Assembly (NCBI RefSeq): GCF_900215605.1
Contig: NZ_OBEL01000006.1
Coordinates: 248,001-312,000 of the forward strand
Direction of reading: 5' to 3'
From: Cohaesibacter gelatinilyticus
Lineage (GTDB): Bacteria > Pseudomonadota > Alphaproteobacteria > Rhizobiales > Cohaesibacteraceae
Length of the DNA: 64,000 bases
The translations under genes and the position numbers were made by a program. This document shows positions 5,871-32,385 of this stretch, in pieces. Position 1 is the first letter of the stretch, and every line of letters starts with the position of its first letter. The notes beneath the pieces are model-generated. The model searched no databases, had not been told where the DNA came from, and saw only the letters and a list, made by a program, of their open reading frames with translations.

Positions 5871-7769
5871 ATGACGCGGTTGAGCAATTCTGGACCTGAA
5901 GCGATTTATGGAATCGAACGTTGGGGCAAAGGCCTGTTTGAGGTGCTGGAGAATGGCAATATTGGCCTGATCACGCAGCATGGTGAAACCACCACCACAA
6001 CGGACCTGACATCAATCCTGCATTCACTGGAAGAGCGCGGCATTGCCTCGCCCATTCTGTTGCGCATCGCCAACAATCTGCAAAGCCAGATCGACAAGAT
6101 CAACAATGGCTTTCAGACCGCTATCAAGGAGCTGAATTACAAGAACAGCTATCGCGGTGTCTTTCCTGTCAAAGTCAATCAGCAAGCCCATGTGATCGAA
6201 AAAATCGTCGAATATGGTGCCCCTCACAATTTCGGCCTCGAAGTCGGCTCCAAGCCAGAACTGATCATCGCTCTGGGCCAGCGTCTGGCGACTGAGAGCC
6301 TGCTCATCTGCAACGGCATCAAGGATAGCGAATTCATCTCGCTGGCACTGCTGTCCCGCAAGCTTGGTTTCAATACCGTGCTGGTGCTGGAAAGTGTCTC
6401 CGAGCTGGAACTTGTTCTCAAGGAATCCAAACGCATTGGCATCCGGCCAGCTCTTGGTATCCGCATCAAGCTGAACAATCGCATCACCGGCAACTGGGCA
6501 CTGTCTTCTGGCGACCGGTCTGCCTTCGGTCTCTCCGCTCCTGATGTGCTGCACGTGATTGAGCGCCTGAAGGAAGAAGAGTTTCTCGATTGCCTGCTGT
6601 TGCAGCATTTCCATCTGGGCAGTCAGGTGCCTGATATTCTGGATGTGCGGCGCTCTACAGCAGAAGCTTGCCGCTTCTTTGTCGAGCTTCGCAAGGAAGG
6701 CGCTCCACTGAAATATATCGATCTCGGCGGTGGCCTTGGCATTGATTATACCGGCGAGCATAAATCGACCGAAAACTCCATCAACTACACCACGACCGAA
6801 TATTGCAACAATATCGTCGAAGCGGTGAAGAACACTATGGATGATGCAGGTGAAGATCATCCAATCATCGTCACGGAAAGTGGCCGTGCGACAGTTGCCT
6901 ATTCCTCGATGCTGCTCTTCAACATTCTCGATGTCACCCATTATGAAGATCGGGAAACCATAGAAATCGGTAATGATGATCTGCGCTCGCTACGTGATAT
7001 GCGCGATGTTGAGAGCTATCTGACCCCTACTCGTCTACAGGAATGCCTGAACGATGTAACCTTCTATCGCGATGAAGTGCGCCGCAACTTTGGCCGTGGC
7101 GAGATTGGCCTGCGCGATCTGGTGAAAGCAGAAAAGCTTTATCTGCATCTGGTCAGCAGAATGCGCAAAGTAGCACAAGGTGATGAATGGGTCTCTGACG
7201 ACGTGAAAAGCGCGCTTGAAAGCTCCGCCGATATCTATCACGCCAATTTCTCTCTCTTCCAGAGCTTGCCGGATGTCTGGGCCATAGACCAGTTGCACCC
7301 AATCATCCCGATCCAACGCCTGAATGAAGAGCCAACCCGCCGCGCGATCCTCTCTGACATCACCTGCGATAGTGACGGCAAGGTCGACCAGTTCGTACTG
7401 GCCGATGGCATCTCCAATTCCCTGCCAGTGCATGAGCTGTCCGAGGGTGAACATTACCATCTTGCCGTCTTCTTTGTCGGCGCCTATCAGGAAACTCTGG
7501 GCGATCTGCATAATCTCTTTGGCGATACCAATGTGGCCACCATCGAGATCCAGCCGGATGGTGATGTGAACCTCATCCATGAGGTCGAAGGCGATACCAT
7601 CGCCGAGGTCTTGCGCTATGTGGAATATGATCCCCTTGCGCTTTCCAATTCTTTCAAGAAAATGGTGGAAGAAGCCGTTTCCAAGAAACGGCTGACTGCG
7701 GGTGAACGCAAAACCATCATGACTGCTTTCAAAGAAAGCTTGAACGGCTACACTTATTTCGAGCATTAG
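5871..7769 (+). CDS. speA: Biosynthetic arginine decarboxylase
   Basis: Cytoplasmic PLP enzyme of 632 residues that decarboxylates arginine to agmatine, the first step of the polyamine route encoded here. It has the fold-III decarboxylase pattern: PLP lysine Lys101 in YRGVFPVKVNQQ, HFHLGSQ, the glycine loop LGGGLGIDYTG and VTESGRA. The C-terminal region runs to YTYFEH, and length matches bacterial SpeA. Start is uncertain: the ATG at 5871 directly abuts the GAAGG ribosome-binding site, whereas an in-frame TTG at 5880 is spaced properly, so translation may begin there. The operon continues with carboxyspermidine dehydrogenase, nspC and speB. Confidence 0.93.
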   Translation: MTRLSNSGPEAIYGIERWGKGLFEVLENGNIGLITQHGETTTTTDLTSILHSLEERGIASPILLRIANNLQSQIDKINNGFQTAIKELNYKNSYRGVFPVKVNQQAHVIEKIVEYGAPHNFGLEVGSKPELIIALGQRLATESLLICNGIKDSEFISLALLSRKLGFNTVLVLESVSELELVLKESKRIGIRPALGIRIKLNNRITGNWALSSGDRSAFGLSAPDVLHVIERLKEEEFLDCLLLQHFHLGSQVPDILDVRRSTAEACRFFVELRKEGAPLKYIDLGGGLGIDYTGEHKSTENSINYTTTEYCNNIVEAVKNTMDDAGEDHPIIVTESGRATVAYSSMLLFNILDVTHYEDRETIEIGNDDLRSLRDMRDVESYLTPTRLQECLNDVTFYRDEVRRNFGRGEIGLRDLVKAEKLYLHLVSRMRKVAQGDEWVSDDVKSALESSADIYHANFSLFQSLPDVWAIDQLHPIIPIQRLNEEPTRRAILSDITCDSDGKVDQFVLADGISNSLPVHELSEGEHYHLAVFFVGAYQETLGDLHNLFGDTNVATIEIQPDGDVNLIHEVEGDTIAEVLRYVEYDPLALSNSFKKMVEEAVSKKRLTAGERKTIMTAFKESLNGYTYFEH

Positions 7770-7925
7770 TGCGCGTCTCATTGGATTGTATCCACAATCC
7801 AACGCCAAAGATTCGCACCCCTAAAATGAACTAGACTATGTCGCTGTGAATCCCATTCACTGGGACTTAGTCTAAGTTAAACGACTGAGGAAGCACTTTC
7901 CTCCCCATAAGAAGGACAGATATCC

Positions 7926-9131
7926 ATGAACAAGGTTCTTGTTATCGGTGCAGGCGGCGTTGGCTCCGTCGTCATTCACAAAATGGCCCAACTGGCCGAC
8001 ATTTTCGGTGAAGTGACCTTGGCGTCCCGCCGCAAGTTCAAATGCGATGAGATCGCTGCTGAAGTCAAAAAGCGCATCGGCGTTGAGATCAAAACCGCCG
8101 AAGTGGATGCTGACAACAGCGAGGCAACTGCTGCCCTGATCCGCGAAACTGGCGCAACCCTCGTGGTCAATGTTGCCTTGCCTTATCAGGATCTGACCAT
8201 CATGGATGCCTGTCTGGCGACCGGCACCCATTATCTGGATACCGCCAACTACGAGCCACGCGATGAGGCCAAGTTCGAATATCACTGGCAGTGGGCGTAC
8301 CAGCAGCGTTTTGAAGAAGCAGGCCTGATGGCGCTTCTCGGCTCCGGCTTCGATCCAGGGGTGACCAACGTCTTCACTGCTCATGCCAAGAAGCACCTGC
8401 TCGACCGCATCGATACCCTCGACATTCTCGATTGCAATGGCGGCGACCATGGCCAGCATTTTGCGACCAACTTCAACCCGGAAATCAATATCCGTGAAGT
8501 CACCGCAGAAGTTCGTCATTGGGAAAATGGCGACTGGGTCACCACCCCGGCCATGTCAAACAAACAAGCCTATGACTTCCCTGTGGTTGGCGAGCGCAAC
8601 ATGTATCAGATGTATCACGAGGAGCTGGAAAGCCTCTCCAAACATCTGCCGGAAATCAAGCGCGCCCGTTTCTGGATGACTTTCGGCGATGCTTACATCA
8701 AGCATTTGGAAGTGCTGCAGAATGTTGGCATGACCCGTATTGATCCAGTGATGTATGAAGGCAAGGAAATCATCCCGCTGCAGTTTTTGAAAGCAGTTCT
8801 GCCAAATCCGGGTGATCTCGGCAAAACCACCAAAGGCAAAACCTGCATCGGCAACATCATGACCGGTGAGAAGGACGGCGAAGAGAAAACCGTCTATGTC
8901 TATAACATCTGCGATCACGAGGAGTGCTTTGCAGAAGTTGGCTCTCAGGCCGTTTCCTACACCACCGGCGTTCCTGCCATGATCGGTGCTGCCCTGATGC
9001 TGACCGGTAAATGGTCCGGCAAAGGCGTCTTCAACATGGAACAGATGGATCCGGATCCATTCATGGACATGCTGAACAAGCATGGCCTGCCATGGCAGGT
9101 GGCTGAATTGGACAAGCCTCTGGATTTCTAA
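7926..9131 (+). CDS. Carboxy(nor)spermidine dehydrogenase (saccharopine dehydrogenase-like)
   Basis: Cytoplasmic NADPH-dependent enzyme of 401 residues. It condenses putrescine (or diaminopropane) with aspartate semialdehyde and reduces the Schiff base to carboxyspermidine (or carboxynorspermidine). The N-terminal Rossmann loop VIGAGGVGSV (residues 5-14) and the block GSGFDPGVTNVFTAHA are diagnostic of the CASDH branch of the saccharopine-dehydrogenase family. AAGGACAG precedes the ATG. It lies between speA and nspC, so its product is the substrate of the next enzyme. Because speA and speB supply putrescine, the expected product is carboxyspermidine. Confidence 0.92.
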   Translation: MNKVLVIGAGGVGSVVIHKMAQLADIFGEVTLASRRKFKCDEIAAEVKKRIGVEIKTAEVDADNSEATAALIRETGATLVVNVALPYQDLTIMDACLATGTHYLDTANYEPRDEAKFEYHWQWAYQQRFEEAGLMALLGSGFDPGVTNVFTAHAKKHLLDRIDTLDILDCNGGDHGQHFATNFNPEINIREVTAEVRHWENGDWVTTPAMSNKQAYDFPVVGERNMYQMYHEELESLSKHLPEIKRARFWMTFGDAYIKHLEVLQNVGMTRIDPVMYEGKEIIPLQFLKAVLPNPGDLGKTTKGKTCIGNIMTGEKDGEEKTVYVYNICDHEECFAEVGSQAVSYTTGVPAMIGAALMLTGKWSGKGVFNMEQMDPDPFMDMLNKHGLPWQVAELDKPLDF

Positions 9132-19956: not shown

Positions 19957-20065
19957 CCCGCTCTAAAAAGATGGCGAAGTTGCTCAGATATCATGGACAA
20001 CGCCATCAAAGCGGCCATAGCAGCAAGCTGATCATGTGACTTTGATAGGATAGGGTAGCGTTTCT

Positions 20066-20521
20066 CTACCCTATCTCATCTCTCATATGATCCACCACGA
20101 CGCGAAAGTTCGAAAGCTGGGGAAGCAAGGCATTGACCTGCTCGGGAGAATAGCGTCCTGCCAGTTCCTCAAAAACTGGAGCCATTTTCTTGATAGCACG
20201 GTTATGAAACTGCCGACCCGCATCTGTCAAACGCACCTGCTTGGACCGACCATCATCAGGATTGGGCTGGAACTCGATATATCCATGTTTTTTCAGCCCA
20301 CTCAATGTGTGCGTCATGGTTGTTTTGGCAACCTGAAATGCATTGGCCAGTTCAAGCGGGGTAGCTGCATCCCGCACGCGGATCAAATGACTGACAACCC
20401 CAAAATGTGACACCAACAACCCCTTGGGCAACCGTGCTTCCAGAAAGGCAGTCCCAATCTGGTTGATGATACCTGCCTCCAGAAAAAGAGCGTAATAAGG
20501 AGCGTGCGTGTTGTCAGACAT
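20066..20521 (-). CDS. MarR-family transcriptional regulator
   Basis: Winged-helix regulator of 151 residues. The DNA-binding core is at about 35-105: TPLELANAFQVAKTTMTHTL is the helix-turn-helix, and the wing reads FQPNPDDGRSKQVRLT, both characteristic of MarR. It overlaps the end of the nitroreductase gene by 8 bases in the same direction, so the enzyme and regulator form a two-gene operon that the regulator probably represses. Ligand is unknown; phenolic or oxidising compounds are common for the family. Confidence 0.92.
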   Translation of the reverse strand: MSDNTHAPYYALFLEAGIINQIGTAFLEARLPKGLLVSHFGVVSHLIRVRDAATPLELANAFQVAKTTMTHTLSGLKKHGYIEFQPNPDDGRSKQVRLTDAGRQFHNRAIKKMAPVFEELAGRYSPEQVNALLPQLSNFRVVVDHMRDEIG

Positions 20522-21617
20522 TTCGAATGCGTGTCTCCAATGGCCAACGAGGGCTGGGGTCTATAGCCGGACCATAACCCAGACGCCCAAGCATTTGAAG
20601 CGTTTCGCCCGGTCCTGCCAGCATTTTATGGACATGTTCATAATGAGCCTTCATCTCAGGATACTCCTGCAAGGCCTGACTGACCGGTTGCATGGATAGC
20701 CCCAACCCGGTAGCGGTCAACTGCAGTCGCATCCAGGAATAACCGGCTTTTATCTGCTCAACCCTCGTGTTGCCCACGGTGGTTATCACCGCATAAGCAG
20801 GCGTTGCCATCATAGCCGTATGTAAAATTTCCTGTCCTTGCTTGAAACTATCACTGGTCCGGTCCGCCTGACCTTCTCGGCTCAGCATGCCAGCTACCAT
20901 CAAGCTTTCAAGCAAAGGTCCTCCGAGAGAAATCCCGTCTGGATTGGCTTCGATCTCAACTTTGCCAAACCTCATGAGATTCACATTTTCCATAAGGGTG
21001 GCTTCGGTCGTCATCTCGATTTCCATTGCTTCCCACGTCACTTGACGAAGAGCTTCAACCTCAGCTTCGCCCATTTCGATCTTCGCAAATTCAGAGAGCG
21101 TCTCCACTGCGTCCACTGGCACAGGACGGTCCTCATACGCTTCGCGATTGGTATGACGATGCAACACATGGGCAAATAACGGATCTTTCTTGCCGCCATC
21201 GACAAATGTCACATCTGCCACAGGCCCCTCCTCGCCTTCCGGAAAGAGATCCATTTTTAATGCAAAGCCATCTTGCGCCGCTGCCATACGGAGCAATTCC
21301 AAAAAACATCCCATACTGACGGTCAGCTGACGATCAAAAGGATCCGTTTCGGGCAAGTTGAGTGACTTGTCGCGATACAGGAGAAGCCTGTCCTCTCCCT
21401 TCAGCTCCGCTATCCATGGCTGTCGATTATGGGAATTGGGTGCCAAAACTGCATAGGACAATGCCCGCTTGCGTGGTTCGTTATAGCTGCCTGCTTGCTC
21501 CCATGGGACCAAAGCACGGTTTGGACGCCGGGTCGTCAGAAAACCGCCTATCGACACCCCCGCAGCAAGAACAACACCACCACCAATGAGACCAATCATC
21601 TTACGTCTGGAATGCAT
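20514..21617 (-). CDS. Nitroreductase-family (Acg-like) FMN protein with Tat-like signal
   Basis: 367 residues. The N-terminus SRRKMIGLIGGG with a following hydrophobic stretch looks like a twin-arginine (Tat) export signal, which suggests a folded, cofactor-loaded protein that is exported or membrane-anchored. The nitroreductase core begins with LSYAVLAPNSHNRQPW, a typical FMN-phosphate-binding motif of the family, and ends with AGYSWMRLQLTATGLGLSMQPVSQAL, which supplies more flavin contacts. Tat-tailed nitroreductase-like proteins occur widely but their substrates are mostly unknown. It heads an operon with the downstream marR gene. Confidence 0.85.
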   Translation of the reverse strand: MHSRRKMIGLIGGGVVLAAGVSIGGFLTTRRPNRALVPWEQAGSYNEPRKRALSYAVLAPNSHNRQPWIAELKGEDRLLLYRDKSLNLPETDPFDRQLTVSMGCFLELLRMAAAQDGFALKMDLFPEGEEGPVADVTFVDGGKKDPLFAHVLHRHTNREAYEDRPVPVDAVETLSEFAKIEMGEAEVEALRQVTWEAMEIEMTTEATLMENVNLMRFGKVEIEANPDGISLGGPLLESLMVAGMLSREGQADRTSDSFKQGQEILHTAMMATPAYAVITTVGNTRVEQIKAGYSWMRLQLTATGLGLSMQPVSQALQEYPEMKAHYEHVHKMLAGPGETLQMLGRLGYGPAIDPSPRWPLETRIRNV

Positions 21618-21649
21618 CTTTCCAATCCTTCAATTTAATCCGATATCGA

Positions 21650-21659
21650 ACTATATAGT
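21650..21659. promoter_or_regulatory. Palindrome before the nitroreductase-marR operon
   Basis: ACTATATAGT is a perfect 10-base palindrome, nearly symmetric out to TCGA on both sides. An ATCGAACT sequence touching it repeats about 40 bases upstream. It lies 33 bases before the nitroreductase start, a good MarR site candidate. Confidence 0.5.
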
Positions 21660-21747
21660 CGAATTCAATTCAAAACAAGTACGAAATCGAACTTTATTAA
21701 AAGACTATAGATAGTGAAACGGAACTGACAGGGTAAAACCTTCTATC

Positions 21748-22650
21748 TCATTCCCAAGCAGGCTGCTTTCCGATCCTCTCCAGCAGAAAATCCATGAAAA
21801 CACGGACCTTGGCAGAGAGGACATTGGCTTTGGGATATACGAGCCAAAGCACGCTTTGATCCGCAATTTCATAATCCGGAAGCACGCGGATGAGGCTACC
21901 GTCCTCCAGCTCCTGATGCACACTCCATAAGGAATTGATCGAAATACCAGCTCCAGCTTTGGTCGCCAATTTCAGACTATGGCCGTCATCCAGAACCAGA
22001 CGACTGATCCCCTTCGCAGGGTCAAACATGGCCTCTTGCTGACCATTTCGGCTCAAGGGCTTTGGTACCCGATCACGAAAAGCAATCAACTCATGCTGGC
22101 TGAGATCGCCTGGTTCACTGGGTGTGCCTTGCTCTGCCAGATAGGCAGGAGACGCACACAGCACCCTCTTGTCATCAGCCAGCTTCCGCCCTTTCAGACT
22201 GCTATCTCCCAGCACACTATTACGCAGGGCCAGATCAAAGCTGCCCTCGATCAAATCATAACGAACATCCGAGAGACGCAGATCGAGGCTAACACCAGGA
22301 TGCTGTGCCAAAAAATCTGGCATCAATGGCATGATATAAGCTTGGGCAAATGTGCTTGGCGCAGTGAAGCGTAAAATGCCGGTTGCCTGTGGCCGACCAA
22401 TGCCTAACGCAGCAAGTGCGGCATCTTCCTGTGCCAGCATTTCCCGTGCATAGGGCAAGAACTCCGCCCCTTCCAAAGACAGAGACACCTTACGCGTGGA
22501 ACGATGGAGCAAATCTGCCCCTACCTCCCTCTCCAACTTTGCCAGACGAGCACTGGCAACCGCAGGAGCCAACCCCAACTCCCGCCCTGCAGCTGAAATA
22601 TTCAGCTTGTCACTGGCCAAGACAAAGAGACGAAGCGCATCGGTATCCAT
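21748..22650 (-). CDS. LysR-family transcriptional regulator
   Basis: About 300 residues. The winged helix-turn-helix begins at DTDALRLFVLASDKLNISAA and continues through LGLAPAVASARLAKLEREVG; the effector domain covers about 88-295. The ATG at 22650 is preferred to an in-frame TTG five codons upstream. The protein resembles the large group of LysR regulators (CrgA/YhaJ-like) that control neighbouring oxidoreductases. It is divergent from an SDR gene with a strong palindrome between them. Confidence 0.92.
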   Translation of the reverse strand: MDTDALRLFVLASDKLNISAAGRELGLAPAVASARLAKLEREVGADLLHRSTRKVSLSLEGAEFLPYAREMLAQEDAALAALGIGRPQATGILRFTAPSTFAQAYIMPLMPDFLAQHPGVSLDLRLSDVRYDLIEGSFDLALRNSVLGDSSLKGRKLADDKRVLCASPAYLAEQGTPSEPGDLSQHELIAFRDRVPKPLSRNGQQEAMFDPAKGISRLVLDDGHSLKLATKAGAGISINSLWSVHQELEDGSLIRVLPDYEIADQSVLWLVYPKANVLSAKVRVFMDFLLERIGKQPAWE

Positions 22651-22680
22651 AGCAATTATATCCAAAACCCGAATTATGAA

Positions 22681-22703
22681 GATAAAAATGAAGCATTTTT
22701 ATC
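22681..22703. promoter_or_regulatory. Operator candidate between lysR and SDR genes
   Basis: GATAAAAATG (22681-22690) and CATTTTTATC (22694-22703) form a perfect 10-base inverted repeat with a 3-base centre. It is located 31 bases from the regulator start and 68 bases before the SDR start. Confidence 0.55.
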
Positions 22704-22770
22704 CTCGATACAATAAATATATTAAGAAGTGAGAGAAGAACAAATACACATTTCTATCCACGAGACCCAT

Positions 22771-23565
22771 ATGCCCAAGACCATTTTGATCACCGGTGCC
22801 ACCGACGGCATCGGTCTGGAAACCGCCAGAATGTTGGCAAAGCAGGGCCATGTATTGCTGTTGCATGGCCGCAATCAATCCAAATTGGATATTGTGAAAG
22901 AGCAGCTCAGCGACAGCCCAGCCAGCTTACAGATATATCGGGCAGACCTTTCGGATCTCTCCGATGTGCAAGCTTTGGCAAAAGCCATTGCAGATGATCA
23001 CAAGCATCTGGATATCCTGATCAACAATGCGGGCATCTATCGAACCAATAAGCCGCGCTTGCAAGGCGGAATGGATGTCCGCTTCATGGTCAATACCATC
23101 GCTCCCTTTGCTCTGACCAAAGCTCTGTTGCCCATCATTCCCAAAGATGGCCGCATCATCAATCTCTCTTCCGCAGCGCAAGCAATGGTCTCGATCAAGG
23201 CCATGATGGGGGAAGAGCCCATTGTGGACATGCCAGCTTATGCTCAGAGCAAACTGGCCATCACCATGTGGACCAGCCATCTGGCGCAACAGCATCCCGA
23301 CGGTCCTCTCTTTGTTTCGGTCAATCCTGGCTCCTTACTGGCAACCAAGATGGTCAAGGAAGGCTTTGGTGTGGAAGGCAGCGACATTTCAATTGGCGCT
23401 GACATTCTCTGCCGGGCGGCTCTAACCGATGAATTCCAAGGCAAATCCGGCCAATATTACGACAATGACACCAAACGCTTTGCCCCTCCTCAAGCAGATG
23501 GGTCCAATATGGCGAAAGCAGCCCGGATCACAGAGACGATTGAGGCCATCATCGCACAAGCATGA
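22771..23565 (+). CDS. Short-chain dehydrogenase/reductase
   Basis: NAD(P)-dependent oxidoreductase of 264 residues from the ATG at 22771; a GTG at 22729 would add 14 residues of non-family sequence. Classic SDR motifs are present: nucleotide loop TGATDGIG (about residues 8-15), structural NNAG, catalytic Ser in INLSSAAQA and YAQSK with the active-site Tyr and Lys. The residues before the tyrosine (GEEPIVDMPA) resemble bacterial SDRs related to retinol dehydrogenases, but the substrate is unknown. It is probably regulated by the divergent LysR. Confidence 0.9.
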   Translation: MPKTILITGATDGIGLETARMLAKQGHVLLLHGRNQSKLDIVKEQLSDSPASLQIYRADLSDLSDVQALAKAIADDHKHLDILINNAGIYRTNKPRLQGGMDVRFMVNTIAPFALTKALLPIIPKDGRIINLSSAAQAMVSIKAMMGEEPIVDMPAYAQSKLAITMWTSHLAQQHPDGPLFVSVNPGSLLATKMVKEGFGVEGSDISIGADILCRAALTDEFQGKSGQYYDNDTKRFAPPQADGSNMAKAARITETIEAIIAQA

Positions 23566-23827
23566 TATAGCCCGCACTTCGATACCTCACGACAACAAAC
23601 GGCTCCAATTACCAGTGACAACTGAAGGAAGAGTATTCATCGAGACAGGCCGAACAGCACAGTCCGCAATTATACCTTTGTAGAATTTTCCTCAATCAGT
23701 AAAGATCCAGCTCTGCATAAACGACATGATGGTACAGAATTCGACGGCGAACGGTTGACACTCAACCCCAAGTTATTCAAGTTGTATAGAGAAATAAACA
23801 GCGTAAAGCTGTGACACCTAGAGCGTC

Positions 23828-23860
23828 AGGGCTATCATGTTAACAAGCATGATGGCCCTT
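23828..23860 (+). terminator. Isolated terminator-like hairpin in the gap before luxR
   Basis: AGGGCTATCATG pairs with CATGATGGCCCTT (one bulge), followed by TCTGTTT. The gap 23566-24142 has no convincing gene. The hairpin is 263 bases after the SDR stop, so it may end a long SDR transcript or close a small RNA beginning after the TTGACA near 23757. Confidence 0.5.
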
Positions 23861-24142
23861 TCTGTTTCCAGATTTCCGACCGCCCCAAGCTTTCATCGTG
23901 ACATGAGATAGCTTATTTCAAGATCCATGATTTTTCTGCGTCTCTTTCCTGTCAAGAATCCCAACCTGAAACAACCTCCAACGGTCATCACAAGTTGTTG
24001 ACGTCGATAGGGATTTCCAGCAATTGCACATCTATGACTACTAATCTATTCTGATTACAATCATAAATGCTTGCCGATACCTCTACCCAATCAAAGCCAG
24101 TTCGGAAGCTAACAAAAACCATTGATATTCAAGGTGCACGTT

Positions 24143-24880
24143 ATGATTGAAAAAGCGCGGCAGCTTCGAGTTTTCGATTTCGTTGAAAAAATCAGGGCCG
24201 TGGAAGGCGATTATTCCGCGATCATCGCCGCCACAATTGATGAACTGAAATGGTATGGACTGGATTATCTGACCTGCACGGAGCTACCGGACCTCGGTCA
24301 AACCGGACAGGAATTAATCCTGGCCAATACCCGTCCCATGGACTATTTGCGGAACTATTTTGAGCAGGGCCACGTTCTGCGTGATCCTGTTGTGACCGAG
24401 TTGAAACGCACCTCGACCCCCTTCACATGGAACCAGGTCAGAGAGCGCAGAAAACTCTCCAAACGCGAGAAAAACATCATCGACGAAGGCCAATGTTTCG
24501 GATTTAACAATGGCATGATCATCCCGGTCATCAGTGAAACTGGCTCAATTGCCATTTTCTCACCTTGCGGCTGGGACCCCGATTTAAGCCCCGATTCGGC
24601 TCTTGCGCTGGATGTTGTCGGCACATTTGCCACCCAGGCTCTGCGCCGTTGCCGCCGCCGCAAGCAACGCCCCAATGATTATAATCCACTGACTTTCCGA
24701 GAACGCGAAATTCTGCAATTCGTCGCCTCTGGCAAAACTGATGATGACATTGCAGACATTCTGACCATATCCAGCAATACAGTTTGCACCCATGTTCAGA
24801 ACATCAAAAGAAAACTATCAGCAAGCAACCGCACTTATGCAGTATATCGCGCTATACAGCTCGGGGAGATCAATTTCTAG
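24143..24880 (+). CDS. LuxR-family quorum-sensing regulator
   Basis: Acyl-homoserine-lactone receptor and transcription factor of 245 residues. The autoinducer-binding domain (about 20-165) keeps the key DPVV (Asp, Pro), TW and GFNNGM elements. The usual tryptophan of the WxxxY pair is replaced by tyrosine (MDYLRNYF). The C-terminal LuxR helix-turn-helix (about 178-240) reads LTFREREILQFVASGKTDDD and SSNTVCTHVQNIKRKL. The ATG at 24143 is chosen, since AAGGT is spaced 7 bases before it; a TTG at 24122 is less likely. luxI lies 93 bases downstream with a lux-box-like palindrome between. Confidence 0.92.
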   Translation: MIEKARQLRVFDFVEKIRAVEGDYSAIIAATIDELKWYGLDYLTCTELPDLGQTGQELILANTRPMDYLRNYFEQGHVLRDPVVTELKRTSTPFTWNQVRERRKLSKREKNIIDEGQCFGFNNGMIIPVISETGSIAIFSPCGWDPDLSPDSALALDVVGTFATQALRRCRRRKQRPNDYNPLTFREREILQFVASGKTDDDIADILTISSNTVCTHVQNIKRKLSASNRTYAVYRAIQLGEINF

Positions 24881-24896
24881 TTGAATCAATATCAAA

Positions 24897-24918
24897 AAAT
24901 ACTAAGTTCCTAGTATTT
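24897..24918. promoter_or_regulatory. Lux-box-like palindrome before luxI
   Basis: Arms AAATACTA (24897-24904) and TAGTATTT (24911-24918) pair perfectly around AGTTCC, giving a 22-base element. The centre is 66 bases before the luxI ATG. A matching element is at 26980-26997. Probable binding site of the adjacent LuxR protein, giving positive feedback on luxI. Confidence 0.7.
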
Positions 24919-24973
24919 AAAGATATTTTTTGATGGTGAATTCTATCTTCGTTACCTAAACATGGAGGTAGAA

Positions 24974-25615
24974 ATGTTAAATATTCTTTATGGATCTCAA
25001 ATGGAAAGCCGCCGTCAGGAGTTTGATCAGCTTTTCAAGGCACGCTTTGAAACATTCGTGGTAGGTCGTGGGTGGTCACTGCCCTCTTATAATGGCCGTG
25101 AACGAGATCAATTCGATAAAGACTGCGCGGTCTATTTCATTGACCGCGATAAGAATGGAGAGATTGTTGGCAGTGTAAGGATCACACCGACCGACCGATG
25201 CTCTTTGTTGGCCGACTGCTTCCCGCACATCTCTAATCCAGATCCAGCACCAAGAAGCCCTCACATTTATGAAGCCACTCGTTATATTTCCTTGCCAAAG
25301 GAAAAATCTCGCGCTGCCAATCGTGCCTCCAAAGCACGTGTCATTGCTGCAGCCATGATCTGGTGCTTCGAACACCAGGTGTCCCGGTTACAGTCGGTGA
25401 TTGATGTAGAATTGCTGGATGCATTCATGGAAATGTGCCCGTATATCAAAGTCATGGGTCCGACATCTGCATATGGAGGGGGGCGTGGCGTTCCTGGCGG
25501 CGGCATGTGTCTTGGCATCAGTGCTCCAGTTCACAGGGAAGCAATTGAAGCGATCCTGCATTTTGGAAATCTCGATCCAAACGAATTTCCAATCCCGGTG
25601 CTGTCAGCCGCCTAA
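24974..25615 (+). CDS. luxI: Acyl-homoserine-lactone synthase
   Basis: LuxI-family enzyme of 213 residues that makes an acyl-homoserine lactone from S-adenosylmethionine and an acylated carrier. All the strongly conserved family residues are present at the canonical places: Arg24, Phe28, Trp34, Asp45, Asp48, Arg69, Phe83, Glu100 and Arg103. The ATG at 24974 is preferred because GGAGGT lies 4 bases before it, inside the longer frame. The acyl chain cannot be predicted. A phytanoyl-CoA-dioxygenase-like gene follows 112 bases downstream in the same direction. Confidence 0.95.
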   Translation: MLNILYGSQMESRRQEFDQLFKARFETFVVGRGWSLPSYNGRERDQFDKDCAVYFIDRDKNGEIVGSVRITPTDRCSLLADCFPHISNPDPAPRSPHIYEATRYISLPKEKSRAANRASKARVIAAAMIWCFEHQVSRLQSVIDVELLDAFMEMCPYIKVMGPTSAYGGGRGVPGGGMCLGISAPVHREAIEAILHFGNLDPNEFPIPVLSAA

Positions 25616-25727
25616 CCCTACCCTAGAATTTCGAAGCATTTAGGCAGTTGCCGATTATCGCCGGTGCTTCTGGCAAAATTGACAATAAAAATCTCATATT
25701 TTTTTCAATTCATGAAAGGCAAACGTC

Positions 25728-26696
25728 ATGAGTAAGGAACTCGTACGCCCAATCACCCCTGACGAAGTCGCAGCTTATAACAATGTAGGTGTCGTTCATT
25801 TAAAAGGCATCCTCGATCTACAATTCGTCAACAAGCTCCGTCGACATCTGGATTCCACGGTACAAACATTGGATCAAAGCCCGGCTGGTTATGATTTCAG
25901 CGAGCTTGTCGCTGCCGCTCAAAACGGCAATTTTGACGAACTGGCCAACCATGATGGCGGACAACATGAAGTGGCAGCCTTGGCCAAATATATCGAAGCA
26001 ATGGGTGATCGCTATCTTCAGGACGAAACGTCCGGCAAAGGGCATTTCTATGTCGATACCGGCACCGTTGCTCGGAATCGTGACTACAAACTCATGCTTC
26101 AGAGAGGTATCTTGCCAAAGATTGCAGCGGCATTTCTGGACTCGGAAAAAGTCAATTTCTTCGGCGAACAGGTCTTTGTCAAAGAACCGGGCACCAAGGA
26201 ACGCACCGCATTCCATCAAGACGCAAGTTTCTTTGAAGTCGAAGGCAACCAATGCTGTGTGATGTGGATCGCAGTAGATCCGACCAATCACGAAACCGGT
26301 ACAATGCAATATATCCGCGGAACTCACCATGATGGCAAATTCTACAAAGCCAACACCTTTGTGTCGCAAACCGCACTACCCGGTTCCCAAGGGGAAGAGT
26401 TGCCCGATATCGAGGCCAATCCTGATCAATATGATATTATCAGCTTCGATACCGAGCCTGGGGACATCATCATACACAATTATAAAACCGTCCATGGCGC
26501 TGGCGGCAACAGAAGCCGCTATCAGCCGCGTAGAGCGTGCTCTGTTCGCTATGCCGGTGATGACATGCGCTTCAAGTCCCGCCCCGGCACACCCGCACAA
26601 TTGCATCATGAAAAGCGTTTGCAAGACGGAGATCCGCTCTCAGGGCCAGATTTCCCGGTCGTCTGGCGCAGACCAAAAATCAAACACGCGGCCTGA
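25728..26696 (+). CDS. Phytanoyl-CoA dioxygenase (PhyH)-family Fe(II)/2-oxoglutarate oxygenase
   Basis: Predicted non-haem iron dioxygenase of 322 residues. The metal triad is visible: His163 and Asp165 in AFHQDASFF and His256 in KTVHGAGGN; an arginine of RSRYQPRRA would bind 2-oxoglutarate. The block MQYIRGTHHDG is also typical of PhyH. Family members hydroxylate many substrates, not only phytanoyl-CoA, including lipids and natural products. Position right after luxI suggests either quorum-controlled biosynthesis or hydroxylation of an acyl substrate linked to signal production (inference). It is convergent with the small gene at 26751. Confidence 0.88.
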   Translation: MSKELVRPITPDEVAAYNNVGVVHLKGILDLQFVNKLRRHLDSTVQTLDQSPAGYDFSELVAAAQNGNFDELANHDGGQHEVAALAKYIEAMGDRYLQDETSGKGHFYVDTGTVARNRDYKLMLQRGILPKIAAAFLDSEKVNFFGEQVFVKEPGTKERTAFHQDASFFEVEGNQCCVMWIAVDPTNHETGTMQYIRGTHHDGKFYKANTFVSQTALPGSQGEELPDIEANPDQYDIISFDTEPGDIIIHNYKTVHGAGGNRSRYQPRRACSVRYAGDDMRFKSRPGTPAQLHHEKRLQDGDPLSGPDFPVVWRRPKIKHAA

Positions 26697-26750
26697 AGCA
26701 TATTTTCCGAAATCATATGACTTTGGAAACAAGATGCGCATCAACGCAAT

Positions 26751-26927
26751 CTAATGTTTCACAGGTTCAGGGGAGCCGTTCTGCGTCTCCTCTGCTTCTT
26801 GTCGAGCCATACCAATAAGGAAAGTCAAAAAACTGTAACCTGACTGCGCGGCCAGTTCTTCCAAGCCTTCCAGATGGGAATAGATGAGCGTAATACTGGA
26901 TTCATTTTCTTGTTGTTGCACGTTCAT
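26751..26927 (-). CDS. Unannotated 58-residue small protein, probably quorum-controlled
   Basis: A short gene with an excellent ribosome-binding site: AGGAGG lies 5 bases before the ATG at 26927, and TAG ends it at 26751. The protein has a polar N-terminus (MNVQQQENESS), a predicted helix with YSHLEGLEELAAQSG, then SFLTFLIGMARQEAEETQ, and a charged tail. One amphipathic or hydrophobic helix (about 31-42) is visible. No family is recognised. It is convergent with the PhyH gene, and a lux-box-like palindrome is centred 62 bases before its start, much as before luxI. It may be a small regulator or membrane-associated effector of the quorum circuit. Confidence 0.7.
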   Translation of the reverse strand: MNVQQQENESSITLIYSHLEGLEELAAQSGYSFLTFLIGMARQEAEETQNGSPEPVKH

Positions 26928-26979
26928 AAGAACCTCCTGAATTATGTTCTTATGATTTGGAAAAACTGAATTTTTCTCA

Positions 26980-26997
26980 ATACTAGAAACCTAGTAT
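26980..26997. promoter_or_regulatory. Second lux-box-like palindrome, before the 58-residue gene
   Basis: ATACTAG and CTAGTAT pair perfectly around AAAC. Over 20 bases it matches the element before luxI at 15 positions, including AATACTA and CCTAGTAT, with the same spacing. Flanking CTCAA and TTGAG extend the symmetry. It faces the small gene on the minus strand; there is no gene on the plus strand for 540 bases. Confidence 0.65.
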
Positions 26998-27003
26998 ATT
27001 GAG

Positions 27004-27539
27004 AGATCGCCCTGTGGATAAGTATATTTCCAAACCTTCTCGCCGGATACCCAGTCAGTTTAATACCGATTTTTTTCTTCCATATCAAATACTTACCTTT
27101 CATCTCTTTTCATTCTTCCCACTAAAGAAGATGGTCAGTCCGTCCCATCAAGTACCGACATCTGACACCTTGCCCTGGATCCGAATGGTTGCATTCTCAA
27201 AAAGCTGCTGATATCACACGCATCCAGCTCATACCGGATCAAACGAAATCCGAGAGCAAATCTGGCGCAATAATTTTGAACTTGATGCCCGATGACCGAC
27301 TTTGAAAATGGAGGGTGCCACATGCCTTATGCTGTTGAGCGTGCCCAAGAGGCCGCAAACTGATCTGAACCGACATCCCGGTTCACTCAGCCTCTGGCGC
27401 AAATTTTTCTGTCAAACACTGACCAAATACCTATCAGGGTAATTCTGACCTGCTTTTGCAAGTCCAAAGATCCCTGACAAGCACGTCTGTTTGACATCTA
27501 TTTGCGCACACCAAAAGACATTTTCAAAGGACCTCTTCA
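27004..27539. other. Gene-free stretch between the quorum locus and rtcB
   Basis: No open frame here looks like a protein, and no RNA gene or clear palindrome is visible. A T-rich part lies near 27070-27125. It must hold the rtcB promoter. The last 60 bases before the rtcB start (CAAAGGACCTCTTCA) provide a fair ribosome-binding site. Confidence 0.5.
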
Positions 27540-28739
27540 ATGGGCACTCCTGATTTGAATGCCGCAGCATCACGCATGGATGCTGCTGACATTCAGCATT
27601 TTTATTCTTCTCGATCATGGATCGAGGGATCAGCACTTGAGCAGTTAGAACAAGTCGCCAGCCTGCAAGGCATGCAGAAGCTGGCAGCATTTCCTGATTT
27701 ACATCCGGGCAAATATGGACCGGTTGGCTGCGCAATGTTGTCTTCAAACCTGTATCCGCAACTCATCAGCAATGACATTGGTTGCGGCATGTCGCTCTTT
27801 GTGCTGGATCTACCATCCCGCAAAATCAAAATAGACAAGTCAGCCAATCAATTGGCCAAATTGGACCAGACTGCAAGTAACGCTGCGAAACAGAATACCA
27901 ACCATCTGGAGGCAAACGGACTTTCTGCCACACTACATCCAGGCACACTCGGCACGATCGGCGGCGGTAATCATTTTTGCGAACTGCAGATGGTTGATCA
28001 CATCGAGAATTCAGACTTGGCAACAAAAGCGGGTCTCGACAGTCATCAATCTTGCTTGCTTGTGCATTCCGGATCTCGCAGCCTCGGCACCGAAGTCTTT
28101 GCATCCATCTTGCAAAAACAAGCTCTGACTGAGGCAGAAGCAAACACCTATATGGCCCTACATGATCAGGCGGTTCGTTGGGCCAAACTCAATCGGCAAT
28201 TGATTGCGGAACGGGCTGCCAGCCTGTTGCGCTGTGACTGCAAATTGATCTCGGACTCGCCGCACAATTTGGTGGAGGTCATTGAGAACATGGATGGAAG
28301 TCGATCGTTCCTTCATCGCAAAGGAGCAGCCAAAGCCGACATGGTCTTTGCGCCTTTGGCTGGCTCTCGTGATGCTTTGAGCTATCTGGTGCATCCAACT
28401 GGACGTGATGACAATGCTCTTGCTTCTCTCGCCCATGGAGCAGGCCGAAAATACAATCGCAGTTCCATGCATGGGCGCATCACTCGCAAGAGATCGGTCC
28501 GGGATGCTCTGATACACACATCTTTTGGTGGGCGTGTCATTTGCGAGGATAGCCAATTGCTCATTGAGGAAGCCCCGCAGGCATACAAGGATGCTGGCCA
28601 TGTCCTGAAGGATCTGACAGATCTGCACCTGATTGAACCAGTTATGTCCTTCAAACCGTTGGTGACGTTCAAGAAATCATCCAGCGTTTCATCAAGCAAG
28701 AAGAGCTTTAACTCCAAACATCGGAGATACAAAAGATGA
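27540..28739 (+). CDS. rtcB: RtcB-family RNA ligase (RtcB2 type, PrfH-linked)
   Basis: GTP/Mn-dependent RNA ligase of 399 residues, which joins 2',3'-cyclic phosphate or 3'-phosphate ends to 5'-OH ends. Key residues are visible: Asp79 and Cys82 in NDIGCGM, Asn144/His145 in GGGNHFCEL, His176 in HSGSRSLG, His242 in SPHNLVE, Arg260/Lys261 in LHRKGA, and the guanylylated His299 in LAHGAGRKYN. It is shorter than E. coli RtcB1 (408) and overlaps prfH by 4 bases (ATGA). The rtcB-prfH pair is known as a ribosome repair module that reseals cleaved 16S rRNA in the decoding centre. Confidence 0.92.
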   Translation: MGTPDLNAAASRMDAADIQHFYSSRSWIEGSALEQLEQVASLQGMQKLAAFPDLHPGKYGPVGCAMLSSNLYPQLISNDIGCGMSLFVLDLPSRKIKIDKSANQLAKLDQTASNAAKQNTNHLEANGLSATLHPGTLGTIGGGNHFCELQMVDHIENSDLATKAGLDSHQSCLLVHSGSRSLGTEVFASILQKQALTEAEANTYMALHDQAVRWAKLNRQLIAERAASLLRCDCKLISDSPHNLVEVIENMDGSRSFLHRKGAAKADMVFAPLAGSRDALSYLVHPTGRDDNALASLAHGAGRKYNRSSMHGRITRKRSVRDALIHTSFGGRVICEDSQLLIEEAPQAYKDAGHVLKDLTDLHLIEPVMSFKPLVTFKKSSSVSSSKKSFNSKHRRYKR

Positions 28740-29362
28740 TACAGCAATCAACAAGGCTTTTGGTGACCAGTGGCGACGGCCCCAGCGAATGTCAGAGGGC
28801 TGTCTCGCTTTGTCTTCAAAAAATGCAAAAAGCAGCACATGCAGCAGGTCTTGGCATTCAGATTGATACGATCAATAAGCCAGATAAGGGCTGCGTGCCT
28901 TCTGCTTTGGTCACACTGTCTGGTGGAGAAGTAACGGCTTTTCTTGCACAATGGTGTGGCACCATTCAATGGATATGCAAAAGTCCGTTTCGACCCAATC
29001 ACAAACGCCAAAACTGGTACATCGGTGTCTTTCCTCTGGCTCAGGAAGAAGAAACGACAAAGATCAGAGCGGAGGATTTGCAATATGAAACCTTCCGTGC
29101 AGGAGGTCCTGGTGGACAACATCAAAACACCACCGACAGTGCTGTGCGTCTGACACATATTCCAAGCGGAATATCGGTCATATCCAGAGATGAGCGCTCG
29201 CAACATCGCAACAAGCATCAAGCCCTGGAACGCATGAAGGCAAAATTCATCCTTCAGGAAAGCCAGAAGAAAGCAATATCCCGGCATGATCAAAACAACC
29301 TGCACAAACAGCTCGAACGCGGAAACCCTGTTCGCACTTTTCGCGGCAAAGACTTCAGGTAA
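28736..29362 (+). CDS. prfH: Peptide chain release factor homolog PrfH
   Basis: Release-factor-like protein of 208 residues, lacking the stop-codon-recognition domain of RF1/RF2. The peptidyl-hydrolysis motif is intact: Gly126-Gly127-Gln128 within RAGGPGGQHQNTTDSAVR, followed by a basic helical tail (RSQHRNKHQALERMKAKF) which is usual for this family. PrfH is thought to sense ribosomes with a cut decoding centre, release the stalled peptide and let the linked RtcB reseal the RNA. The gene starts inside the last codons of rtcB, and a strong terminator follows. Confidence 0.93.
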   Translation: MIQQSTRLLVTSGDGPSECQRAVSLCLQKMQKAAHAAGLGIQIDTINKPDKGCVPSALVTLSGGEVTAFLAQWCGTIQWICKSPFRPNHKRQNWYIGVFPLAQEEETTKIRAEDLQYETFRAGGPGGQHQNTTDSAVRLTHIPSGISVISRDERSQHRNKHQALERMKAKFILQESQKKAISRHDQNNLHKQLERGNPVRTFRGKDFR

Positions 29363-29367
29363 AACAA

Positions 29368-29401
29368 TGAATAGGCCAGCCCTTTTGAGCTGGCCTATTC
29401 A
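29368..29401. terminator. Terminator between prfH and chemoreceptor gene
   Basis: TGAATAGGCCAGC and GCTGGCCTATTCA form a perfect 13-base stem with an 8-base loop. It serves the convergent prfH and chemoreceptor genes. Confidence 0.85.
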
Positions 29402-29420
29402 TATTGCCATATTTCCCGTT

Positions 29421-31610
29421 TCAGGCAGAACGAATATCCGCAAGGAAGCGATTGATCTGATGATCAAGAGCATCAGACTGACTGGAGAGATCAGAAGCCG
29501 CCGTAAGCACCTCACCAGATGCTGAACCAGTCTCGGATACAGAATGCTGAACCGAAGTGATATTGGATGCCACATCCTGCGTACCAACGGCTGCTTCTTG
29601 CGCTGACCGGGTAATTTCTTGTGTTGAAGCATTTTGCTGTTCAACAGCGGTGGCAATCGCCAGCATGGCTTCACCCAATTGCCCGATCACACCATGAATC
29701 TCGGTAATGGCAGAAACCGAGTCATTTGTCGCAACCTGCATTGTACCAATCTGGCTGGCAATTTCTTCCGTCGCTTTTGCAGTCTGGCTTGCCAGTTCCT
29801 TGACCTCGGATGCAACAACTGCAAATCCGCGTCCTGCTTCTCCCGCCCGTGCTGCTTCAATAGTCGCATTCAAAGCCAGCAAATTGGTCTGTTCCGCAAT
29901 ATCATTGATAAGCTTGATGACATCACCAACCTTTTGAGCCATGTGAGAGAGATTTTGAACAGTCTCGGTTGCATTGGAAGTGGTGGCCTGCGCTTGTTCA
30001 GCCACCTGACGACTTTCATTCACCTGGCGATTGATTTCAGAAATGGAACTGGATAATTCCTCGGATGCCGCAGCCACTGTCTGTACATTGGCAGAGGCTT
30101 CCTCAGTCGCACTTGCAACAATAGTTGATTGCTCGGAGCTCTCCTGAGCCAGACCTGACATATTCTCGGCTGTCGACTGCATCTGGGACGCTGAGCTGGC
30201 AATACTTTCCACCACACTTTTCACGTTGGTTTCCAATTCATCAGCCATCTTCATTTGAGCCGCACGTTTTTCTGCAGCCATCTGCTTCTCTGCTTCGGCC
30301 TGCTCTGCTTCCAATCGGTTCTTGGCAATCGCATTATCTTTGAAAATTTGTGTCGCCTGCGCAATATCGCCAATCTCATCCTCGCGAGACGTACCAGTTA
30401 CTTCAATGGAGGTATCGCCATCAGCAAGACGACGCATCGCTTCTGTAATCCGGTTGAGCGGCCCACCAATGCCAGAGCCAATAAACCATGCCAGTGCAAG
30501 GCCAATAACGATCGCTCCCACAACAAAGCCAATAATCAAACTATATGTAGAACCGACGGTTTCAACATTGCTGGCTTGGCGAACTTCCATAAGCGTCTGC
30601 TCTTCCGCCTTGAATTCATCCATCAACTGGCGAAATTTATCAAAATACTGTTTTCCCCGGGCTTCAGCCACCAGATCCGCCATATCATCCATGGTCTTGG
30701 CATCACCAATTTCCCGTCTGAGCGCAATCATGGGTTCGACCACCTTTGTGCGCCAACCGTCAATGCTTTTCTTCATCTTGGCAAGCAGCGCCACTTGCTT
30801 TGGATTGTCATTGACTGTTTTGCTCAGTTTGGTAACCAGTTTATCAAAGGACTTTTGTCCAGTCGTATACGGTGCAAGAAAGTTCTCTTTACCTGACAGC
30901 AGATAACCACGCATACCAGTTTCCATATCAACTGCTGCTGCAAGAATTTTCTGTGTCTCTCCAATGACCTTGTAGGTATGTTCAACCCATTGGACACCCT
31001 TTTCAATCTGTTCTTTTGACAGGTATCCGCTATCCAACTCACGCTGAAATTCCTTCTGACGCTTGATAAGCAGAAGCTCTTCCCTATTCTGGAAAGTGGC
31101 AATCTGGTTGCGGAACTTATCAAAATAGGCTTTGCCGCGCGCTTCCCCAACCAGTTTGGAGACATCATTCATGGTCTTGGCATCGCCAATATCACGGCGC
31201 AACTGGATTTGCATTTTCGTCACATTGGACTGCCAATCCTTGAGAACAGCCCGCACCTTCTCCAGTCGCTCAACCTGCCCCGGATTATCACTCACCGTTT
31301 TCTGCAGTTCGTCAATACCTGCATAGGTTCGCTTTTCGCCCGACTTGTAAGGATCCAGAAATTCCTCCTTGCCAGCCAAAAGGTAACCCCGCATACCGGT
31401 TTCCATATCGACCGCAGAGGCCACAATGGCAGACGCATCTGCCATCACCACCCGGGTATGATCCACCCATTTGCTGGTGGTGGTGATCTTGTCTACATTG
31501 AAAAGGGAAATACCGCCTACAGCAGTCAACAAAACCAGAGGCGCACACACACCCAATAGAATTTTGCTTTTGGTTTTGAGGCTTGAAAATTTAAACCCGC
31601 CAAGTGCCAT
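29421..31610 (-). CDS. Methyl-accepting chemotaxis protein with duplicated CHASE3-like sensor
   Basis: Chemoreceptor of 729 residues. TM1 is at about 17-37; then two CHASE3-like sensor units follow in tandem (about 48-184 and 208-344), TM2 at 355-378, HAMP about 379-435 and a signalling coiled coil with [20 protein letters not shown]. The two sensor units are related at an exact 160-residue offset: [11 protein letters not shown] at 68-78 and 228-238, IGDAKTM at 141 and 301, and ARGK-x-YFDKFR at 157 and 317. CHASE3 domains are extracytoplasmic sensors of unknown ligands. The receptor stands alone, with a 330-base AT-rich upstream gap. Confidence 0.92.
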
Positions 31611-31944
31611 ATCTCGCTCCCACTGCCTATCAAAATGTCCATCGATGAACAGACATCACTGGGAGGGTAAGGCACATCACACCAGTGATGATAAGTTCAG
31701 GTCGTAAGTCCTGAGAGAAAGTTATGATTAACTAATTAATAAGCCGCTAATATGCAGCCAGTTTCCGCAAATGCTTGCTGATCTTGACAAAAATTCCAAG
31801 TAATTCTTAAGAATTTTTAGGCAAGCATGAAGAAAAAAAGAAAAATCAAAAATAAATAAGCATAAATACTTATAAAATCAACAATAGACACAAAGAGAAA
31901 ATAAACTGAAGTGAACAATCAACTGATAATATCAATATGAGAAT
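31611..31944. other. AT-rich gap upstream of the chemoreceptor gene
   Basis: No protein or RNA gene is evident. The sequence becomes very AT-rich around 31720-31945, and must carry the chemoreceptor promoter. It also covers the 3' flank of the dCMP deaminase gene; no strong terminator hairpin is seen. Confidence 0.5.
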
Positions 31945-32385
31945 TCACCTTAAAATTGCAATTTCAATACCACAATCCTCGAGGATTTGCTCACTTCTAG
32001 TCGTATCAAAACGGGCAGCAATACCATCATTATGACGCCAGATCACTCGAGCGACACCAAGCTGGGCAAGGTTTTTTGCACACTCCTTGCACGGCGGATG
32101 AGTGATATAAACACTAAACCCCTTTATCGGCTCATGGGCGGAAAAAGCAGCATTCATTTCCGCATGAATCACGCGATCATATTTCTCGGACCGATCTTCA
32201 TAATGGTCAGGCACATCCGCCATACGGCGCGGAAAGCCGTTATAGCCGACGGCAGCAATGGTCTTGTCCGGACGACAGATTGCAGCCCCCACTTTGGTGG
32301 ATGGATCGCGGCTACGTTTGGCTGCCTGCTCTGCAAACCCCATCATCCATTCATCAAATCCCGGCCGCATGAACGTCTCCATCAT
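31945..32385 (-). CDS. Deoxycytidylate (dCMP) deaminase family protein
   Basis: Zinc cytidine/deoxycytidylate deaminase of 146 residues, expected to convert dCMP to dUMP for dTTP synthesis. The zinc site is complete: His74-Ala75-Glu76 in VIHAEMNA and Cys99/Cys102 in HPPCKECA. An N-terminal segment DPSTKVGAAI and the YNGFPRRM loop match dCMP deaminases of the ComEB group. Translation may begin at 32385 or, with a better GGAG spacing, at the ATG at 32370. Its neighbours do not suggest a phage origin. A nucleotide-scavenging role is equally possible. Confidence 0.85.
   Translation of the reverse strand: MMETFMRPGFDEWMMGFAEQAAKRSRDPSTKVGAAICRPDKTIAAVGYNGFPRRMADVPDHYEDRSEKYDRVIHAEMNAAFSAHEPIKGFSVYITHPPCKECAKNLAQLGVARVIWRHNDGIAARFDTTRSEQILEDCGIEIAILR

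Follow-up and report, generated by a model that had tools for sequence, protein, structure and literature searches.

Matching palindromes, very probably LuxR operators, precede luxI and a probable convergent gene for a small protein predicted to be helical

Introduction

Operators of LuxR-type proteins are palindromes of ~20 bp located near -42 of the controlled promoter. Two matching palindromes of this length occur in the 64,000-nucleotide stretch of DNA analyzed here (the window), one 5' of luxI and one 5' of an unannotated 58-codon gene on the opposite strand, raising the question of whether one LuxR protein controls both genes and what the small protein would do under its command.

Small proteins encoded with acyl-homoserine-lactone (AHL) synthases have precedents. 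In the accessible text of the relevant reports, CinS of Rhizobium leguminosarum, co-transcribed with cinI, binds PraR and relieves repression (PMC4149787, PMC5977203), and MmaP of Methylobacterium fujisawaense, a 59-residue protein co-transcribed with mmaI, also binds PraR (PMC10790750). The available portions of two further papers describe a praR neighborhood conserved across Alphaproteobacteria (PMC10688885) and a phyH gene adjoining an AHL synthase gene in Novosphingobium (PMC3704786).

Results and discussion

Gene organization of the locus

The genome under study (5.2 Mb, labeled G000) was set beside 17 congeneric genomes. The genes follow the order luxR (+), luxI (+), phyH (+), 58-codon ORF (-), rtcB-like (+) and prfH (+), and the features of the locus are compiled in Table 1. 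A LuxR protein with both domains adjoins a LuxI protein with conserved residues, placing the pair within LuxR-LuxI AHL quorum sensing. Nine LuxI residues (R24, F28, W34, E43, D45, D48, R69, E100 and R103) are invariant in an alignment of seven relatives, and we take them to be functionally important synthase positions. The accessible text of PMC3704786 names R24, F28 and W34 in the same sense. The luxR start was picked from sequence, with a longer frame beginning at TTG 24122; for luxI, the ATG at 24974 is favored over a second in-frame ATG at 24962 because of the GGAGG at 24964-24968.

Table 1. Coordinates of the features of the locus, with the evidence for each.
Feature	Position	Strand	Evidence
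luxR	24144..24880	+	autoinducer-binding domain PF03472, E 6e-22; GerE helix-turn-helix PF00196, E 1e-17
Operator 1 (putative), AATACTAAGTTCCTAGTATT, 5' of luxI	24898..24917		pattern scan; rank 2 of 63,981 with the relatives' matrix
luxI, acyl-homoserine-lactone synthase	24974..25615	+	PF00765, E 2.5e-14; Shine-Dalgarno GGAGG
phyH, Fe(II)/2-oxoglutarate dioxygenase-like	25728..26696	+	PF05721, E 1.8e-24; 112-base gap after luxI
58-codon gene (probable), small helical protein	26751..26927	-	Shine-Dalgarno; relatives adjoining luxI; profile comparisons; helical hairpin model
Promoter-like TTGAGA-17-AATCAT leading to the small gene; overlaps one end of operator 2	26952..26980	-	promoter scan; hint only
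Operator 2 (putative), AATACTAGAAACCTAGTATA (plus strand), 5' of the small gene	26979..26998		pattern scan; rank 1 of 63,981 with the relatives' matrix

The luxR-luxI-phyH cassette belongs to a family that is present elsewhere in the order. At E <1e-20, 14 of the 397 genomes searched within the order, G000 included, encode a LuxI relative, and a collection of named genomes supplied a further 18 luxI loci. PhyH relatives of 46-61% identity lie 3' of luxI in 12 of 18 related loci, and phyH is probably cotranscribed with luxI and driven by the luxI operator as well. The position of phyH directly 3' of the AHL synthase gene is shared with sphingomonad luxR-luxI-phyH cassettes, for which a private operator of a small gene is undescribed in the accessible text of PMC3704786.

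The rtcB-like gene is scarce in the genus (2 of 18 genomes), as is an ORF at 20514-21617 (1 of 18). Base composition gives no sign of a recent island, with G+C at 24-27 kb being 46-49%, slightly under the surroundings. A known RNA element was likewise rejected, since no Rfam match reaches the gathering score within 20000-32000.

Sequence and placement of the two palindromes

The two palindromes are identical at 15 of 20 positions, and their centers (24907.5 and 26988.5) lie 66.5 and 61.5 bases 5' of the ATG codons at 24974 and 26927, in agreement with the sequence-only reading that first drew attention to them. Its picture of the arrangement holds insofar as the palindromes precede luxI and the small minus-strand gene; phyH, which it left unmentioned, separates these two genes. 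By eye, no likeness extends outside the 20-mer, which speaks against a simple duplication of the luxI promoter. Set against the classical lux box, the sites share a ~20-bp dyad, whose center may lie near -43 5' of the small gene, but differ in the core, as had already been remarked: the core is of ATACTAG-N4-CTAGTAT type here and of TCCTAG-N4-CTAGGA type in relatives.

A palindrome of the same type precedes luxI in related genomes. Across the DNA 5' of luxI in 17 relatives' loci (L049, L050, L056 and L059-L072, with duplicate locus copies uncounted and L057 and L058 outside the set), it is present in 12 (L049, L050, L059-L066, L069 and L071), centered ~62-80 bases 5' of the LuxI match start and exemplified by TCTCCTAGTTTTCTAGGATA in L059, TCTCCTAAGAACTTAGGATA in L060 and AATACCAAGTTTCTAGGATA in L066. 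The form in L070 and L072 is poorer, and at the equivalent position L067 and L068 carry perfect palindromes whose sequence is different (TATATGGGAAAACCCATATA and CATATTGGGAAACCAATATG). No convincing copy was found 5' of luxI in L056 and no clear copy in the loci of the distant LuxI relatives L073-L076.

A matrix was built from 12 of these sites (L049, L059-L066, L069, L070 and L071), with no window site among them; L050 and L072, whose sites duplicate the L049 and L070 ones, and the differing L067, L068 and L056 were left out. Over the 63,981 positions of the window, this matrix ranks 26979 first (17.3 bits) and 24898 second (16.5 bits), followed by a place at 12.8, and in a simulation of 3.84 million positions one reached the scores of the window sites. 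A 14-site matrix that adds both window sites was used to scan relatives' loci of 3.4-12.6 kb, L049, L050 and L056 excluded. The luxI-proximal site scores 15.7-25.6 in L059-L066, L069 and L071, with the next best place per locus at ≤11.1; the corresponding values in L070 are 12.8 and 11.4, and no place scores strongly in L067 or L068. L069 and L060, both of which encode a relative of the small protein, yielded no second strong site, and L071 and L072 end shortly after the luxI start, so that the scan could have overlooked a second site in them. The two-operator layout is seen in G000 alone.

Genome-wide occurrence of the pattern

Within the window, AATACTA-N6-TAGTAT with at most one mismatch occurs only at these two places. 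With up to three mismatches it has 7 matches against a shuffle mean of 4.02, and 12 of 100 shuffles reach 7; because this count is unremarkable, only the near-exact form carries weight. The genome-wide search that the sequence-only reading had proposed finds the exact core, ATACTA-N6-TAGTAT, at two places in 5.2 Mb, both of them the window sites, against an expectation of ~0.009 under a dinucleotide model derived from the window. The exact core has no occurrence in the 17 congeneric genomes searched, one of which is just 64% complete. Allowing two mismatches yields 34 places in the whole genome (287 for a backward control pattern), a few of which were read in context (L035, L036 and L038). When the 34 are scored with the 14-site matrix, the window sites reach 21.0 and 19.9, values raised by their own inclusion in it, whereas the highest score among the remaining 32 is 14.6.

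These counts bear on the reading that the palindromes arose by chance in AT-rich intergenic DNA and that the 58-codon ORF is non-coding. The pattern was picked after the sites had been seen, and its three-mismatch form is not unusual in the window. Against this stand the window-free matrix and the genome-wide count, on which chance palindromes were rejected, together with the conserved position 5' of luxI and an ORF that has a ribosome-binding site and relatives; we regard this explanation as extremely improbable. The palindromes in relatives and the first and second ranks under the window-free matrix instead support the earlier proposal that both sites are operators of the local LuxR, which we consider very probable.

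Recognition helix of LuxR

The helix-turn-helix of LuxR contains a T-V-x-x-H pattern, and the window protein has C at its first x. At this position L049, L050, L059-L064, L066 and L071 have A or T, L067 and L068 have N, L069 has K, L070 and L072 have R, and L056 has E; the helix of L065 is unread by the pattern. In L067 and L068, the two loci with N, the palindrome has another sequence too, a co-change that counts in favor of the operator reading but is descriptive and uncorrected for relatedness.

Four further PF03472 LuxR-type proteins are encoded in G000, and the sites might be bound by one of these or by an unrelated regulator. We judge this highly improbable, since the palindrome travels with this luxR-luxI family across genomes and the one other G000 recognition helix readable by the pattern differs, with D at the first x.

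Promoter-like patterns around operator 2

A promoter scan returned five matches in the stretch against 4.1 expected, so the matches serve as hints only. One of them, TTGAGA-17-AATCAT (26980-26952), abuts operator 2, points toward the small gene and would place the operator center near -43 of an estimated transcription start. At the same offset 5' of luxI lies TTTAAA-17-AATTCT, under the scan threshold. Among the properties expected of a LuxR operator, the palindromes, their uniqueness in the genome and their conservation are observed directly, and the -43 placement comes from this weak promoter-like match.

The best of the five matches, TTGAGA-18-TATATT (10 of 12 positions), leaves operator 2 on the plus strand at 26999-27028. 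Operator 2 could accordingly serve chiefly a divergent transcript to rtcB-prfH, or both directions, bringing RNA repair and ribosome rescue genes into the regulon. This is improbable in our assessment: the number of matches barely departs from expectation, rtcB begins at 27540, >500 bases from operator 2, and a tblastn search that included relatives' loci located rtcB beside the cassette in the window only. The sequence-only reading had proposed a closed regulon of luxI and the small gene. The genome-wide count backs such a regulon, which may nevertheless not be closed: phyH is probably included, and a plus-strand promoter-like pattern also leads away from operator 2.

The 58-codon gene and its relatives

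The 58-codon gene is probably real because it has a ribosome-binding site, a predicted helical hairpin and relatives adjoining luxI elsewhere. Its Shine-Dalgarno sequence is the complement of CCTCCT at 26933-26938. AlphaFold2, run with three sequences, predicts helices at residues 3-29 and 32-49 (mean pLDDT 77, pTM 0.49). Pfam and NCBIfam hold no useful family match for the protein, which at 58 codons has the traits of the CinS/MmaP type, namely ~60 residues and no known domain.

Direct matches are confined to 2 of 61 genomes, G000 and the congener G012; the G012 copy lies apart from any luxI, in a genome without a PF00765 match. By direct search of the named genomes, no relative was confirmed among 490 pattern matches, and plasmids gave none at E 1. 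Iterated profile searches of the loci recover relatives adjoining luxI in L069, L060, L011, L150 and L151. The L069 relative is convergent and 3' of phyH, as in the window; that of L060 is 3' of phyH and weak (E 0.15, then 0.004 in the next round, and 0.017 in another search); those of L011, L150 and L151 lie directly 3' of luxI.

The ORFs 3' of luxI were compared by eye at 94 non-identical luxI ends. Eight encode alike proteins of 62-69 residues (L121, L138, L140, L151 and the congeners' L157-L160), and the remaining 86 have, under a start and ribosome-site rule, no ORF or an unlike one. A second kind of small ORF lies directly 3' of phyH in 8 of 12 phyH-bearing loci (L060, L062 and L064-L069). 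Small proteins of the present kind are mostly encoded in relatives on the same strand, directly 3' of luxI or phyH; the window gene is convergent to luxI-phyH and has its own putative operator.

A likely remote relationship to CinS and MmaP

In R. leguminosarum bv. viciae, a 67-residue ORF overlaps the AHL synthase gene; judged by host, length and position, it is probably the published CinS, and the L121 protein shares 83% identity with it. The L138 and L140 proteins resemble an ORF 3' of luxI in Methylobacterium bullatum. Compared with a profile of the window group, L121 reaches a score of 28.9, the congeners' group 24.0, the L060 protein 30.8 and the Methylobacterium-type group 15.4, with ≤18.1 in 200 random segments. 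The shuffle controls (100 each) reach ≤16.4 for the Methylobacterium type, ≤14.8 for the congeners and ≤15.8 for L121, so that, at 15.4 against shuffles of up to 16.4, the window group shows no significant direct similarity to the Methylobacterium type. L121 scores 25.9 to the Methylobacterium type and 30.6 to the congeners, which score 8.0 to the Methylobacterium type. The L060 protein fits the window group only (12.1, 10.4 and 9.6 to the others).

Joining L121 with the R. leguminosarum protein gives 28.4 against the window group (100 shuffles ≤17.0), and a pooled profile reaches 21.2 to the Methylobacterium type (100 shuffles ≤12.9). The window protein alone, scored with no shuffle control, reaches 23.8 with the R. 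leguminosarum pair, 16.3 with the congeners and 16.5 with the Methylobacterium type. For the second, phyH-adjoining kind of ORF, the scores are 21.0 with the window group (≤15.4 in 60 shuffles), 23.1 with the congeners (≤19.0 in 60 shuffles), and 11.4 and 10.8 with the other two groups. By profile comparison, then, the 58-residue protein is probably a distant relative of the R. leguminosarum 67-residue protein and possibly, with lower scores, of a Methylobacterium protein in an MmaP-like position. This link to MmaP would be indirect, running through the R. leguminosarum-like group and the pooled profiles.

A proposed quorum-sensing circuit

G000 contains a praR-metK-trmB-like locus (L173), in which HTH_3, S-AdoMet_synt and Methyltransf_4 genes follow in that order. 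Because this praR-like locus is present and CinS and MmaP bind PraR, we propose that LuxR activates luxI-phyH and also, from an operator of its own, the gene for a PraR antagonist of the CinS/MmaP type, a scheme that we hold to be somewhat better than evenly supported. In this scheme, LuxR with AHL would bind both palindromes just 5' of the -35 element, activating luxI-phyH in a positive feedback and, in parallel through operator 2, the small gene. The helical-hairpin protein would then bind the Cro/C1-type regulator PraR and lift its control at high cell density, in the manner of CinS and MmaP. With a gene convergent to luxI-phyH and under a separate operator, the dose of the small protein could be set independently of that of the synthase.

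Whether the small protein is itself a PraR antagonist of this type is evenly balanced in our judgment. With both sites still LuxR operators, it might act elsewhere, for example as an antiactivator of LuxR like TraM, a protein of about 100 residues, adding negative feedback beside the positive loop. The remote relationship to CinS/MmaP-like proteins leaves room for such a role, proteins this small are not tied to one partner, and the gene adjoins luxR-luxI; the top profile scores, however, go to the R. leguminosarum-like group, and the praR-like locus is present in G000. We consider a role of this kind possible and, on balance, unlikely.

The PraR antagonist scheme resembles cinR-cinI-cinS of R. 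leguminosarum in its LuxR-LuxI pair and in a small helical protein as the likely output, as well as in the remote relationship to the 67-residue ORF and in the praR-like gene of G000. It differs in that cinS is, as far as the accessible text goes, co-transcribed with cinI (PMC4149787, PMC5977203), whereas the window gene is convergent with its own LuxR-type operator; the luxI-phyH cassette also belongs to another LuxI subfamily. With mmaR-mmaI-mmaP of M. fujisawaense, as the available text describes it (PMC10790750), the locus shares a praR-metK-methyltransferase neighborhood and, in the proposed circuit, an output protein of equally small size and a positive feedback loop through the synthase. 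There, mmaP is co-transcribed with mmaI, whereas the window gene lies on the opposite strand with an operator of its own; similarity to the Methylobacterium-type group comes via intermediates only and was set against that group, not the MmaP sequence itself. In the titles and abstract beginnings of the literature searched, we recognized no lux-type operator 5' of a separate CinS-like gene.

More tentatively, hairpins of the CinS/MmaP kind may be a general quorum-sensing output of Hyphomicrobiales, a single divergent superfamily linking cell density to PraR. By means of a second operator, the output gene here would have left the synthase operon, or a resident orphan (compare G012) would have been captured by an incoming luxR-luxI-phyH cassette; the strong direct LuxR regulon would then consist of the signal operon and one PraR antagonist. 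CinS and MmaP, reported separately, may form one wide, fast-diverging family that has no Pfam or NCBIfam model, and the layout illustrates how the acquisition of a separate LuxR site might rewire such a small-protein output. With this analysis, an unannotated 58-codon gene becomes a testable candidate for a quorum-sensing output, and a family-specific putative operator becomes available for searches in other genomes carrying the luxR-luxI-phyH cassette.

Ligand pocket of LuxR

The ligand pocket of LuxR proteins presumably involves W57, Y61, D70, P71 and W85 (TraR numbering). The window protein retains Y61, D70, P71 and W85 and has Y rather than W at position 57, a substitution suggesting that its ligand may be unusual and non-standard for this class. 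Relatives carry the same residue at position 57 in 15 of 16 proteins read, with F in the other.

Variation in putative operators and at LuxR position 57

At two Methyloceanibacter-type luxI loci (L067 and L068), a perfect palindrome lies upstream of luxI, with a sequence unlike the window type, and LuxR carries N at the variable position of the T-V-x-x-H motif in its recognition helix. Judged from sequence, operator and recognition helix have possibly changed together at these loci. Position 57 of LuxR, which we assign via TraR numbering and where we take W to be the expected residue, is occupied by Y in the window protein and in 15 of the 16 relatives read (among loci L049–L072); the sole exception, L065, has F. 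The replacement of W by Y in this family may give the window-type LuxR an unusual lactone pocket. Equal-score luxI-family matches in three genomes of one genus (G042:C1371, G290:C58, and G386:C11) contain two in-frame TAG codons apiece.

Genomic surroundings of the cassette

A promoter-like element, TTGAGA-18-TATATT, points from operator 2, the predicted LuxR palindrome before the small-protein gene, to rtcB-prfH. Window positions 20514-28739 form an accessory region: of 18 genomes in the genus, 2 have the rtcB-like gene and 1 has the ORF at 20514-21617.

A plsY-like gene is close to the small-protein gene both in congener G012, where the latter stands alone, and at L060, where it is linked to the cassette; this common neighbor is a hint that the two copies go back to one ancestral location. 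Directly after phyH, 8 of the 12 relatives that have this gene carry a small ORF of a second kind in the same orientation; the window has no such ORF in this position.

Coordinates of features in the window and at relatives' loci
Feature	Locus	Position	Strand
LuxR gene	window	24144-24880	+
Promoter-like element	window	26999-27028	+
Accessory region	window	20514-28739	
Accessory-region ORF	window	20514-21617	
Palindrome upstream of luxI	L067, L068	5922-5941 in each (approximate)	
Region with lone small-protein gene and plsY-like gene	L174 (G012)	~6684-9101	
Region with cassette-linked small-protein gene and plsY-like gene	L060	8355-9220	
Second-kind small ORF	L060, L062, L064-L069	just behind phyH	phyH strand
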